DNA from: Streptomyces ambofaciens ATCC 23877
GTDB taxonomy: Bacteria > Actinomycetota > Actinomycetes > Streptomycetales > Streptomycetaceae
DNA length: 64,000 nt
Assembly: GCF_001267885.1 (NCBI RefSeq)
Contig: NZ_CP012382.1
Location: forward strand, 1,661,001-1,725,000
Reading direction: 5' to 3'
Shown: one piece after another, positions 1,572-44,816 of the stretch
How positions within the stretch are numbered: position 1 is the stretch's first letter
How the letters are laid out: every line of letters begins with the position of its first letter
Made by a program: the position numbers and the translations under genes
Notes under the pieces: generated by a model
The model's database searches: none
The model's input: only the letters and a program-made list of their open reading frames with translations
What the model was told of the DNA's origin: nothing

Positions 1572-2399
1572 TCAGAAGGTCGGGAGCACGGACCCGGCGT
1601 AGTTCTCCTCGATGAACTTCTTGACCTCGGGCGAGGTGAGGAGCTTCGCGAGCTTCTTCACGCGCGGGTCGTCCTCCTGGCCCTCCTTGACGACCAGGAG
1701 GTTGACGTTCGGGTTGTCCTCGGCGGACTCCAGGACGAGGGCGTCCTTCGCCGGCTTGAGGTCGGCCTCCAGGGCGTAGTTGCCGTTGATGACCGCCGCG
1801 TCGACGTCACCCAGGGAGCGCGGGGTCTGGGCCGCCTCCAACTCCTTGAACTTGAGGTTCTTCGGGTTCTTGGTGATGTCGGCGGGGGTGGCCGAGTTGC
1901 CCGCGCCCTCCTTGAGGGTGACCAGGCCCTCCGAGGCGAGCAGCTGCAGGGCGCGGGCCTCGGTGACGGTGTCGTTGGGAAGGGCGATCGTCGCGCCGTT
2001 CTTGAGGTCGCCGGCCTTGTCGGCCTTCTCGGAGTAGAGGCCGAGCGGCTCCAGGTGCACCGAGGCGAGGGACTTCAGGTGGGTGCCGTTCTTCTTGTTG
2101 AAGTCCGCGAGGTAGGGCTCGGTCTGGAAGTAGTTGGCGCCCACCGAGCCGTCCTCCGTCGCCGTGTTCGGCGTGACGTAGTCGGTGAACTCCTTGACCT
2201 CCAGGTCGAGGCCCTCCTTCTCCGCCAGGTTGTCCTTGACGTAGTTGAGGATCTCGGCGTGCGGGACGGGCGTCGCGGCGACGACCAGCGGGCCGGAGGT
2301 GTCGGAGGCGGAGTCCTTGTCCGAGCCGCAGGCGGAGAGGCCGAGGGTGAGGGCTCCGGCGGCGAGGACGGCGGTGGTGATCTTGGCAGTGTTACGCAC
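1572..2399 (-). CDS. metQ: D-methionine-binding lipoprotein MetQ
   Basis: Substrate-binding lipoprotein of the MetNIQ ABC importer, of the NlpA/MetQ family. The GTG at 2399 is chosen because GGAAAGG lies about 8 nt upstream and the resulting N-terminus is a proper lipoprotein signal: basic RNTAK, a hydrophobic core and the lipobox LSAC with Cys24 as the lipidated residue. The mature part shows the family segments VVAATPVPHAEIL, FTDYVTPNTATEDGSVGANYFQTEP and INGNYALEADL. At 275 residues it has normal length. It is the last gene of metN-metI-metQ, which fits capture of methionine outside the membrane for MetI. Confidence 0.93.
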   Translation of the reverse strand: MRNTAKITTAVLAAGALTLGLSACGSDKDSASDTSGPLVVAATPVPHAEILNYVKDNLAEKEGLDLEVKEFTDYVTPNTATEDGSVGANYFQTEPYLADFNKKNGTHLKSLASVHLEPLGLYSEKADKAGDLKNGATIALPNDTVTEARALQLLASEGLVTLKEGAGNSATPADITKNPKNLKFKELEAAQTPRSLGDVDAAVINGNYALEADLKPAKDALVLESAEDNPNVNLLVVKEGQEDDPRVKKLAKLLTSPEVKKFIEENYAGSVLPTF

Positions 2400-2481
2400 G
2401 AAAAGTGCCTTTCCTGAGGTGGTGCGACCCGTCACGGGTGGAACGGGGGAACTGGGGGTGCGGCGGGGGTGGGCGGTCGGC

Positions 2482-3219
2482 TCACGCCGCCTTGCTCACG
2501 TCGGCCGCAGCGGGCTCCTTCGCCTTGAGCAGCCGGAGCCGGGGCCCGGCGCCCCCGCGTCCGCCGCGGCGGTGCAGGGCGCGGGCCGCGGCGTCGCCGG
2601 CGAACTGGATGAGCGAGATGACCACGGCGAGCAGCGCGACGGTGATCCACATCAGGCCGGTCTCGAAGCGCTGGTAGCCGTAGCGGACGGCGAGGTCTCC
2701 GAGACCGCCGCCGCCGACGGTGCCGGCCATGGCGGAGTAGCCGATCAGGGCGATGATCGTGGTCGTCGTGCTCGCGATCAGCGACGGGAGCGCCTCGGGG
2801 ACCAGGACCTTGCGGACGACGGTCCAGGTGTTGCCGCCCATGGCCTGGACGGCCTCGACCAGACCGCCGTCGACCTCGCGGACGGCCGTCTCGACCAGCC
2901 GCGCGAAGAAGGGGATGCCGCCGATGGCGAGCGGCACGATCGCGGCCTCGCTGCCGATGGTCGTGCCCGTGATCCAGCGGGTGAAGTTCATCAGGGCGAC
3001 CATGAGGATGATGAACGGCAGCGAGCGGCCGATGTTCACGATCTGGCCGATGACCTTGTTCACCACGGTGTTCTGCAGCAGGCCGCCCTTGTCGGTCAGC
3101 ACCAGCAGGATGCCCAGCGGGAGTCCGCCGACGACGGCGATCAGGGTCGACCAGCCGACCATGACCAGGGTCTCCTGACAGGCCTGCTCCAGCAGGGGCT
3201 GCATCTCGGACCAGGTCAC
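2482..3219 (-). CDS. metI: Methionine ABC transporter permease MetI
   Basis: Membrane permease of the MetNIQ importer, 245 residues. The GTG start at 3219 overlaps the metN stop codon as GTGA, so the two are translationally coupled. About five transmembrane helices are visible, together with the EAA-type loop that contacts the ATPase (MGGNTWTVVRKVLVPEALPSL, near residue 140). The C-terminus extends about 30 residues past the last helix and is basic and Ala-rich, somewhat longer than the enterobacterial protein. Homodimer formation and pairing with MetN follow from the family. Confidence 0.93.
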   Translation of the reverse strand: MTWSEMQPLLEQACQETLVMVGWSTLIAVVGGLPLGILLVLTDKGGLLQNTVVNKVIGQIVNIGRSLPFIILMVALMNFTRWITGTTIGSEAAIVPLAIGGIPFFARLVETAVREVDGGLVEAVQAMGGNTWTVVRKVLVPEALPSLIASTTTTIIALIGYSAMAGTVGGGGLGDLAVRYGYQRFETGLMWITVALLAVVISLIQFAGDAAARALHRRGGRGGAGPRLRLLKAKEPAAADVSKAA

Positions 3220-4298
3220 TTGGCACCTTCCTTCACCAGCAGCGGCTGGTCCTCGTTCACCGTGTCGCCGTTGACCGGGTCGCCGTTGTCCGGGTCGCCG
3301 TTCACCACGTCGATCTGGAGTCCCTGTTCGCGCAGGAAGCCGACGGGCACCACGTTGTCCTCGTAGCGGCCGGGCAGTTCGATGCGCATCCGGCCGACCT
3401 GGAGGCCGCCGACGGTGTCGATGGCGGCGCCGAGGATCGATATGTCGATGTTGTAGGTGCGGGAGAGCTGGGAGATGACGGGCTGGGTGGCGGCCTCGCC
3501 GTGGAAGGTGACGTCCAGGACGGTGCGGTCGTCCGCGGATGCCTCGCCGCCCACCGGGAAGAGCGCGGCGGCCAGTTCGGAGCCCGGGGTGGCGAGCAGG
3601 TCGCCGACGGTGCCGGACTCCACGATCCGGCCCCGGTCCATGAGGGCGGCCGAGTCGCAGACGCGCTTGACGACGTCCATCTCGTGCGTGATGAGCAGGA
3701 CGGTCAGGCCGAGCTGCCGGTTCAGGTCGCGCAGCAGCTGGAGGATGGAGCGGGTGGTCTCGGGGTCGAGGGCGCTGGTCGCCTCGTCCGAGAGCAGGAC
3801 CTTGGGGTCGCCGGCCAGCGCGCGGGCGATGCCGACGCGCTGCTTCTGGCCGCCGGAGAGCTGGGCCGGGTAGGCCTTGGCCTTGTCGGCGAGACCGACG
3901 AGGTCGAGCAGCTCCAGCGCCTTGCGGGAACGTTCCTGCCCGGACTTGCCGAGGATCTCCAGCGGCAGTTCGACGTTGTCCTGCACGGTCCGTGTCGAGA
4001 GCAGGTTGAAGTGCTGGAAGACCATGCCGATCCGGCTGCGGGCCTCCCGCAGCTCCCTGCCCGCGCGGGGGCCGCGGCCGGCGAGCGCGGTGAGGTCCTG
4101 GCCCGCGACGGTGACCGTGCCGGCGGTGGGGCGCTCCAGGAGGTTGACGCAGCGGATGAGCGAGGACTTGCCGGCGCCGGACTGACCGATGACGCCGAAC
4201 ACCTCTCCCTCGCGGACGTGCAGGTCGACGCCGTCGAGGGCGGTGACCTCGCGGCCGCGGGAGCGGTAGACCTTCGTGAGGCCCGATGTGGTGATCAC
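3216..4298 (-). CDS. metN: Methionine ABC transporter ATPase MetN
   Basis: ATP-binding subunit of the methionine importer. It carries Walker A (GQSGAGKSSL), the Q-loop region VFQHFNLL, the signature LSGGQKQR, Walker B with VLLSDEATSALD and the H-loop ITHEMD. The roughly 100-residue C-terminal extension with VISQLSRTYNIDISILG and VGFLREQGLQ is the NIL/ACT-like domain, which in E. coli MetN binds methionine and inhibits transport. The GTG at 4298 giving MITTSGLTKVY is preferred. A GTG 15 nt earlier is possible. The short C-terminal tail contains a repeated DNGDPVNGD-like motif. The leader upstream carries a Cys/Met-rich peptide. Confidence 0.92.
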   Translation of the reverse strand: MITTSGLTKVYRSRGREVTALDGVDLHVREGEVFGVIGQSGAGKSSLIRCVNLLERPTAGTVTVAGQDLTALAGRGPRAGRELREARSRIGMVFQHFNLLSTRTVQDNVELPLEILGKSGQERSRKALELLDLVGLADKAKAYPAQLSGGQKQRVGIARALAGDPKVLLSDEATSALDPETTRSILQLLRDLNRQLGLTVLLITHEMDVVKRVCDSAALMDRGRIVESGTVGDLLATPGSELAAALFPVGGEASADDRTVLDVTFHGEAATQPVISQLSRTYNIDISILGAAIDTVGGLQVGRMRIELPGRYEDNVVPVGFLREQGLQIDVVNGDPDNGDPVNGDTVNEDQPLLVKEGAK

Positions 4299-4497
4299 GT
4301 GGGTTTCCGTCACTGTCGAGTGCGCGGCGCGGGGGTGTGCCGGGCACGGGGCGTTGTTCTTCGGGGTTCTGGGGGTCCTTCGGAACGCGGCACGGTTCTC
4401 GCGGTGGCGATGCACGGTGGTGGAACCGGGGAGAAACGTGTGCGCGGGGCGTGGCTCAGCCGCGGACGCGGGGCGCGGTGGCGGCCGTGAGCGGGCG

Positions 4498-4515
4498 CTC
4501 GCTTCGGGGCGCGAG
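4498..4515. promoter_or_regulatory. Hairpin in the metN leader, downstream of the leader peptide
   Basis: Read on the minus strand, CTCGC and GCGAG (5 bp) enclose an 8-nt loop. The hairpin starts about 20 nt after the stop codon of the Cys/Met leader peptide and lies about 200 nt before metN. Larger alternative pairings with nearby GAGC/GCTC blocks are possible. It is a candidate attenuation element only, since no U-tract follows. Confidence 0.3.
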
Positions 4516-4537
4516 GCTCAGGTGGTGCAGGGGCCCT

Positions 4538-4624
4538 CTAGGAGGCGCACATTCGACACATACAACGAGCACCGGGCGTCATCGTCGCCTCGGTCGCAGG
4601 GGTGCGGTCGCTCGTCGTGCTCAT
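4538..4624 (-). CDS. Cys/Met-rich leader peptide upstream of metN
   Basis: A short reading frame of 28 codons on the metN strand ends in ARCMCRMCAS-stop: three Cys and two Met within six codons. The codons of this tail (GCT CGT TGT ATG TGT CGA ATG TGC) are unusually AT-rich at third positions for this genome, as expected if the RNA itself is constrained. A -10-like TTTACT lies 6 nt before the ATG, so translation may be leaderless. Alternatively an internal ATG at 4582, with GAGG 5 nt upstream, gives a 14-residue peptide MTPGARCMCRMCAS. Cys-rich leader peptides that sense cysteine by attenuation are known in actinobacteria. Its role here is inferred. Confidence 0.6.
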   Translation of the reverse strand: MSTTSDRTPATEATMTPGARCMCRMCAS

Positions 4625-4627
4625 GCG

Positions 4628-4636
4628 ATCAGTAAA
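4628..4636 (-). promoter_or_regulatory. Candidate -10 of the metN transcript
   Basis: Minus-strand TTTACT sits six nucleotides before the leader-peptide ATG, which would make that ATG the +1 position. No convincing -35 hexamer is present at 17-18 bp, so the promoter call is tentative. Confidence 0.35.
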
Positions 4637-4660
4637 GCAGACGTACGGTCCTGACCGGGA

Positions 4661-4689
4661 CACCGCTGTCCGGATGCTGGACAGCGGTG
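4661..4689. terminator. Hairpin terminator of the HAD phosphatase gene
   Basis: An 11-bp perfect stem (4661-4671 with 4679-4689) with a 7-nt loop lies 29 nt past the stop of the minus-strand HAD gene. It lies just upstream of the metN leader, so it separates the two transcripts. Confidence 0.7.
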
Positions 4690-44511: not shown

Positions 44512-44810
44512 GGATCCTCCTCGGTAGCACCACGCGACGGTCTGGCGGACAGCCGCGTAACGTCTGTGTTCGATAGACCTAACCGCGCCGGCGCAACAAA
44601 AATGCCCCGGACGATCACAGGCGGGGCTCCTTGGACTACTACCGGAGCACCGCCGCGATGGCCGCGGGGCGCGATCTCGGGCTGGTCGCCGCCGTGGGAC
44701 GGGACCGCCTGACCGGTGACCCGCCGTCCTGAGGACGGCCAGGTGGGAGTTCGGAGCCTCCACTTGTGGGCCGGATTCGCTGCCGTGGGCGTGCGTTTCC
44801 GACCGGTCGT
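44512..44810 (-). promoter_or_regulatory. infC: Long structured leader of infC
   Basis: About 300 untranslated nucleotides between the probable promoter and the ATC start. It includes a perfect 7-bp hairpin at 44723-44739 (GCCGTCC/GGACGGC) and possible GGTCT/AGACC pairing close to the ribosome site. It is a candidate r-protein or IF3 autogenous control leader. Confidence 0.5.
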
Positions 44811-44816
44811 TACACA

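Follow-up and report, generated by a model that had tools for sequence, protein, structure and literature searches.

A putative leaderless leader-peptide attenuator with a near-invariant CGA-AUG codon pair ahead of metNIQ in Streptomyces ambofaciens

A leader ORF ahead of metNIQ is already in print. In Streptomyces lividans TK24, metL (SLIV_29928) encodes MSTTSDRTPATEATTTPGARCMCRRMCAF followed by a stop codon, lies ahead of metNIQ and is leaderless by RNA-seq (PMC8079986). The relevant passages of that paper mention 'several methionines and threonines' and several hairpins without a typical Rho-independent terminator, and leave the mode of termination uncertain. No further paper on the metL leader was recognised in the literature searched, in which the fixed CGA-AUG codon pair and the folded RNA reported here seem not to have been described. 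The present locus belongs to a 64,000-nt stretch of Streptomyces ambofaciens ATCC 23877 DNA (the window), in which translation of 4624-4538 (minus strand) gives MSTTSDRTPATEATMTPGARCMCRMCAS and a stop, 239 nt 5' of the metN GTG (Table 1). An initial annotation, made from the sequence, had pointed to a short Cys/Met frame on the metN strand, upstream of metNIQ; the C-terminal residues that it named (Ala-Arg-Cys-Met-Cys-Arg-Met-Cys-Ala-Ser) are exact on translation, and the gene assignments bear out the position. The reading that we favour, with moderate confidence, is that metL acts as a leaderless leader-peptide attenuator through which metNIQ responds to Met and perhaps also to Cys.

Table 1. 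Features of the metL-metNIQ locus, in window coordinates
Feature	Position	Strand	Evidence or remark
NdgR-like palindrome GTCC-N7-GGAC	4668..4682	.	ahead of the metL promoter; 17-nt form TGTCC-N7-GGACA at 4667-4683
Extended -10 promoter TGC-TTTACT	4631..4639	-	6 nt 5' of the ATG
Leader ORF metL, 28 codons	4538..4624	-	leaderless start at 4624; translation, frame test, S. lividans RNA-seq in PMC8079986
P1 5' arm ACGACGAGC	4610..4618	-	nt 7-15 of the frame
P2a, short hairpin within the junction	4595..4606	-	88.9% of cells paired
P2b, hairpin ACCGaGGCG...CGCCCGGU	4571..4594	-	99.5% of cells paired in 27 sequences; 5/8 pairs never vary
P1 3' arm GCUCGUUGU (Ala-Arg-Cys codons)	4562..4570	-	nt 55-63 of the frame
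CGA-AUG codon pair, near-invariant, at the end of the frame	4550..4555	-	186/190 leaders; stop geometry 190/190
GAGGGCCC motif at the stop	4531..4538	-	GAGGGCC or GAGGGTCC in 176/190
Hairpin CTCGC-GCCCCGAA-GCGAG	4498..4515	-	core motif in 163/190
C-rich, G-poor untranslated leader between metL and metN, candidate Rho-loading region	4299..4537	-	239 nt, C/G 1.85; composition
metN, ATPase with NIL domain	3216..4298	-	best NCBIfam match TIGR02314, below equivalog cut-off
metI, permease	2482..3219	-	NF008049 over cut-off
metQ, NlpA-type lipoprotein	1572..2435	-	above the Pfam PF03180 cut-off, below those of the NCBIfam MetQ models

An extended -10 element (TGN with TTTACT, TTAACT or TTTAAT) was found 6-7 nt 5' of the ATG in 188/189 leaders. 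This placement, together with the published RNA-seq of S. lividans metL (PMC8079986), supports a leaderless message, as the initial annotation had suggested; along with the conservation of the frame, it points to a short ORF standing ahead of a regulated operon, as in leader-peptide attenuators. The other start that had been considered, an internal ATG with a GAGG site, is less likely: the stretch ATEA...PGA is present in 146/190 leaders and lacks Met in 77 of those.

The frame was examined in a set of 213 loci, 205 of them anchored on metN (seven of the remaining eight were weak own-genome peptide matches and not metN). Two of the anchored loci were too short, one (L074) failed and 202 gave a leader, 190 of these being distinct. 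The frame test was anchored on the conserved -10 rather than on an ORF, and the distance from the ATG to the CGNATG element was measured; it proved to be a multiple of three in 190/190 distinct regions, at ten different lengths (66-135 nt), when two short loci, L042 (no CGNATG) and L074 and L205 (no promoter match) were omitted. The first in-frame stop codon in these regions begins 15 nt (182 regions) or 12 nt (8 regions) from the start of the pair, while frame +1 is mostly shut by a TGA overlapping the ATG and the position of the stop in frame +2 is variable. Because many loci came from peptide similarity, the test was redone on MetN-found loci only, with L041, L042, L045, L047, L074 and L205 omitted: 52/52 were in frame at nine lengths, with the stop at +15 in 45 and at +12 in 7. 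The 190 leaders were chosen partly by leader similarity, and the MetN-led samples are the less biased check. On these comparative grounds the metL frame is confirmed as real, its ATG-to-pair distance lying beyond chance.

At least one Cys is present in the last ten codons of 190/190 leaders (mean 2.71) and at least one Met in 189/190 (mean 1.87), as in the codon clusters of attenuators, while the remainder of the peptide is 1.9% Cys and 3.2% Met. The conservation of Cys/Met codons that the initial annotation had proposed to check among relatives was borne out. Arg is almost as frequent as Cys in the same ten codons (mean 2.53), which counts against the attenuator reading. The pair itself, CGAATG within the last 40 nt, was seen in 186/190 leaders (49/52 of the MetN-led ones); three others have CGCATG and L042 has neither. 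The codon directly 5' of the pair is Cys in 159/186 (TGT 149, TGC 10) and non-Cys in 27/186, and the codon directly 3' is TGC in 98, TGT in 46, CGC in 41 and CAC in 1, that is, non-Cys in 42/186. The proposal that the Cys and Met codons act as the sensor thus stands as regards enrichment of both residues, but the fixed part is CGA-AUG and no single Cys codon is invariant. We rate as rather unlikely a scheme in which cysteine gives the chief signal, in the manner of mycobacterial poly-Cys leaders, and the Met codons are secondary. The Cys counts, the frequent Cys directly before CGA and one locus of another family (L220), which keeps RRCVPLPGGRCR with no Met past the start, would suit such a signal, whereas the Cys codons flanking the pair are replaced in the 27 and 42 leaders above with AUG kept, and Met import is the annotated function of the operon.

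In an ARAGORN run over the regions that hold the genome's 72 tRNA places, the Arg anticodons found were ACG, CCG, CCT and TCT, with no TCG among them, which leaves the ACG (inosine) tRNA as the one that must decode CGA. I-A pairing is slow. Inhibitory CGA-CGA pairs are described in yeast, not bacteria, in the material available from PMC6301793. We tentatively propose that CGA-AUG may serve as a decoding brake: with only the ACG (inosine) tRNA-Arg to read CGA, poor I-A pairing in the P site would leave decoding of the AUG that follows exceptionally reliant on charged Met-tRNA. A single Met codon could then be sensor enough, and the rare codon would be kept by selection as a sensitiser, with the folding of the ORF setting the timing of the ribosome. 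A rare CGA before AUG would offer a one-base testable prediction on wobble decoding tuning an amino acid sensor. A metabolite might instead be sensed by the nascent chain itself, as an arrest peptide with RMC or RMR at its end. R-M-[CR] is found near the end of 188/190 peptides, but a peptide sequence leaves the conservation of the CGA wobble base unexplained, the residues upstream vary, insertions occur just 5' of the motif and the last residues differ (AF, AC, DR, EL, GC), and we consider this reading improbable.

The RNA of the frame is itself folded: the P1 arms ACGACGAGC and GCUCGUUGU pair, with two hairpins between them, and in some other genera GAGC/GCUC of P1 is exchanged for GAAC/GUUC. 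Covariation was assessed on 33 diverse leaders drawn from 149 without insertions, of which 27 were aligned; six other-genus leaders were omitted because their stems differ. Pairing amounted to 93.7% of cells (91.5% shuffled), and double changes were seen in 6 pairs (shuffled 2.8) and 12 cells (shuffled 4.1). None of 500 shuffles reached the observed pairing or double-change values, in a type of test that can overstate covariation among related sequences; one of the five covariation measures, further pair types, was unexceptional (14 vs 12.2 shuffled, reached by 42/500). The consensus that RNAalifold itself derived from the 27-leader alignment held four P1 pairs only, with a small covariation term; the junction was recovered on two subsets, and no structure was returned for all 190 sequences, the alignment of which was very gappy. 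The longest helix between the start and the end of the frame was at least 9 bp in 129/190 leaders (codon-shuffled controls, mean 6.4). Folding of the window ORF by itself beats its shuffles by a modest margin (z -1.61), and covariation is therefore what carries the case for the helices. By eye alone, GCUCGUU might also pair with AAGCGAG, and a GGGC-GCCC pseudoknot might form.

This fold also bears on the codons GCT CGT TGT ... TGT CGA of metL, which the initial annotation had correctly singled out as unusually AT-rich and which are indeed unusual for the region: among the 29 window genes TGT accounts for 13/129 Cys codons, GCT for 31/1851 Ala codons and CGA for 38/1165 Arg codons. Because the Ala-Arg-Cys codons form the P1 arm that pairs with the start of the frame, base pairing accounts at least partly for their being AT-rich.

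A covarying fold inside a short frame could instead belong to a ligand-binding, riboswitch-like three-way junction in which the frame is incidental, a reading to which the covarying P1/P2 helices and the conserved wobble bases within the frame would lend themselves. The strict geometry of frame and stop speaks against this, and other genera change the in-frame fold, yet CGA-AUG and the stop persist. Rfam left the leader unmatched at gathering scores and, at E up to 1, gave one weak match on the opposite strand, so no Rfam riboswitch or leader family accounts for it; we regard the riboswitch reading as very unlikely. Elsewhere in the window, 44597-44811 (minus strand) matches Rfam RF02830 (Scr1601 Streptomyces RNA) at E 1.3e-40.

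The leader is widespread in the genus. A peptide query matched 197/199 own-genus genomes at E ≤ 1 (186 at E ≤ 0.01). Nineteen genomes, six of them besides the 13 that had been weak or negative, were re-examined with MetN; 13 have metN and six do not. Contig ends truncate three of these 13 loci, and a leader frame is present in the remaining ten. In a family-level sample, metN was located in 53/61 genomes at 55 places, 46 of which were read and 45 of which have the leader. The exception, L074, retains the 3' end of the frame only, without the promoter and the N-terminal half, and keeps ATGTGTCGAATGTGTGCCTGA. Across 197 genomes of the class, the leader-peptide search returned only own-genus matches at E ≤ 0.01 (16/197). 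The RNA model gave 32 genomes at E ≤ 0.1: half of these, 16 of the own genus, lie at E ≤ 2.3e-17, and the other 16, with E from 7e-4 to 0.09, are taken as chance. Model R1 scored E 1.2e-28 at the locus, with the next best place in the genome at E 2.0.

In another family of the same class (f17), metN was located in 31/61 genomes, and 33 loci were read over 450 nt 5' of metN. CGAATG occurs in 6/33 loci, and in five of these (L237, L238, L239, L247 and L260) an in-frame stop follows 9 to 15 nt later; L237 has the same -10 and the C-terminus MRCCRMCAF before its stop. Model R1, built without the loci of this family, detected L237 at E 5.9e-10 and L238 at E 3e-8 in 71 kb, while L239 and L247 were not convincing. 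Three further loci (L215, L243 and L250) have another Met/Cys-rich frame ahead of metN, ending ...MGGMPSMR and a stop, apparently a different solution. In others no leader frame could be recognised. That the ORF makes a functional small protein and is no cis-acting leader is extremely unlikely, good conservation of the peptide within the genus notwithstanding: the N-terminal half differs across genera, wobble positions are fixed and insertions are tolerated.

Downstream of metL, the hairpin that the initial annotation had put forward as the switched structure is exact and mostly conserved, its core lying within 90 nt of the metL stop in 163/190 relatives. Any switch role is at most putative: the core is absent from 27/190 relatives that keep the leader, and the hairpin probability in modelled transcripts is 0.69 free and 0.74 with a ribosome at the AUG. 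In some relatives CTCAC replaces the 5' arm CTCGC with the loop GCCCCGAA kept, which suggests that the loop sequence itself is recognised. The hairpin was rejected as a general element, with one genome place only at up to 2 mismatches. Also conserved is CACUCGACAGUGACGGAA ahead of the metN GTG (4299-4322), well 5' of the likely ribosome-binding site.

No intrinsic terminator-like site was found on the metN strand when a stem followed by a U-run was sought before the first gene, and the G+C-rich stem and U-run of a classical intrinsic-terminator attenuator are thus absent. The leader has the C-rich, G-poor composition of Rho-dependent attenuators, with 48% C and 26% G over 239 nt (means of 45% C and 28.5% G in relatives), and its C/G ratio of 1.85 is matched by just 0.2% of 6378 overlapping 220-nt stretches. 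Rho-dependent termination at the metL leader, for which composition is the evidence, is the weakest step of the proposed mechanism. In 61 modelled transcripts the probability of P1 was 0.76 free, 0.09 with a ribosome at the AUG and 0.79 with a ribosome at the stop; P1 would accordingly open with a ribosome at the AUG, but no conserved competing partner was established.

Attenuation might alternatively act on translation: the leader RNA would hide the ribosome-binding site of metN except while a ribosome stalls within metL. For mycobacterial poly-Cys leaderless ORFs, control of downstream translation is described in the part of the literature covered by PMC9031893, and the leader UGUCGA is complementary to UCGACA in the metN-proximal CACUCGACAGUGACGGAA, both being intact in 127/190. 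Against this, no covariation of the two was seen: CTCGACAG is kept in 7/10 TGCCGA leaders, and lineages with CCGAC near metN retain CGA. In equilibrium folding of the same 61 transcripts, the unpaired probability of the metN start region was flat, at 0.416 free, 0.413 stalled and 0.423 with a ribosome at the stop, and this value of about 0.42 in all three states speaks against masking of the ribosome-binding site. We judge translational attenuation unlikely. Long-range UGUCGA-UCGACA pairing as the cause of CGA invariance was ruled out on the missing covariation, and modelled masking of the metN start was discarded, ribosome position being without effect.

A further layer of control may act ahead of the promoter, where GTCC-N7-GGAC was present within 110 nt 5' of the ATG in 166/189 leaders, against a background of 13/1278 window stretches; the longer TGTCC-N7-GGACA was present in 101/189 relatives. 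In shape the palindrome corresponds to the 15-bp motif of NdgR in S. coelicolor, and leuB is a listed NdgR target, according to the portions of PMC4340878 consulted. The genome matches the pattern TGTCCRNNATNCGGACA exactly at two places, the metL site and a site just 5' of the leuB frame (L360, 1501-1517). We predict metNIQ to be an NdgR target, bound at the metL palindrome; this is offered as a prediction only, because a word search of PMC4340878 does not find metN named. A one-mismatch copy of TGTCCRNNATNCGGACA lies at L362 (1501-1517) between divergent frames that by eye are aminopeptidase-like in one case and carry a CPWA motif in the other, the latter frame giving no NCBIfam match, and six more one-mismatch places occur in the genome.

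Taken with the frame, the codon pair, the helices, the missing recognisable terminator and the C-rich leader, the leader-peptide attenuator remains the best account of the locus, and the initial annotation is partly supported, more firmly for Met than for Cys. A ribosome would start at the 5' AUG, unwind the P1/P2 junction within the frame and then meet the terminal Cys/Met cluster with CGA-AUG just ahead of the stop. With ample charged tRNA it would finish and depart, exposing the bare C-rich leader to an early transcription stop, probably through Rho. With charged Met-tRNA (and perhaps Cys-tRNA) scarce, it would wait at CGA-AUG, holding P1 open and shielding the leader, so that metNIQ would be transcribed. 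We infer the pause at CGA-AUG, its sensitivity to Met or Cys, the part of Rho and the direction of regulation. If so, methionine uptake in Streptomyces would be codon-read, with neither an Rfam riboswitch nor a recognisable intrinsic terminator in the leader, and the leader could be a tractable model for leaderless, terminator-less attenuation in high-GC bacteria.

Rho-dependent attenuation is known from tnaC of E. coli, which metL would resemble in that a ribosome near the end of the leader ORF decides access of Rho, and from which it differs in that the signal for tnaC is free tryptophan, sensed via the nascent chain. The S. lividans metL is the same leader ahead of metNIQ, leaderless and with hairpins but no typical Rho-independent terminator; its account, in the passages concerned, deals with Met and Thr content and does not mention the CGA-AUG pair, the in-ORF helices, the phylogenetic spread or the NdgR site (PMC8079986). 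Predicted actinobacterial cys leader peptides without terminators are alike in having regulatory codons near the stop and in the suggestion of Rho, but the relevant section of that study notes no RNA structure conserved ahead of methionine operons, unlike the metL helices (PMC1262725). Comparable too are the mycobacterial poly-Cys leaderless ORFs, as related in part in PMC9031893, in which sulfur amino acid codons of a short leaderless ORF set ribosome speed, as proposed for metL. Those Cys codons are contiguous, whereas in S. ambofaciens metL they are interleaved with Met and Arg (Cys-Cys is seen in some relatives), CGA-AUG is fixed and the operon is one for Met import.
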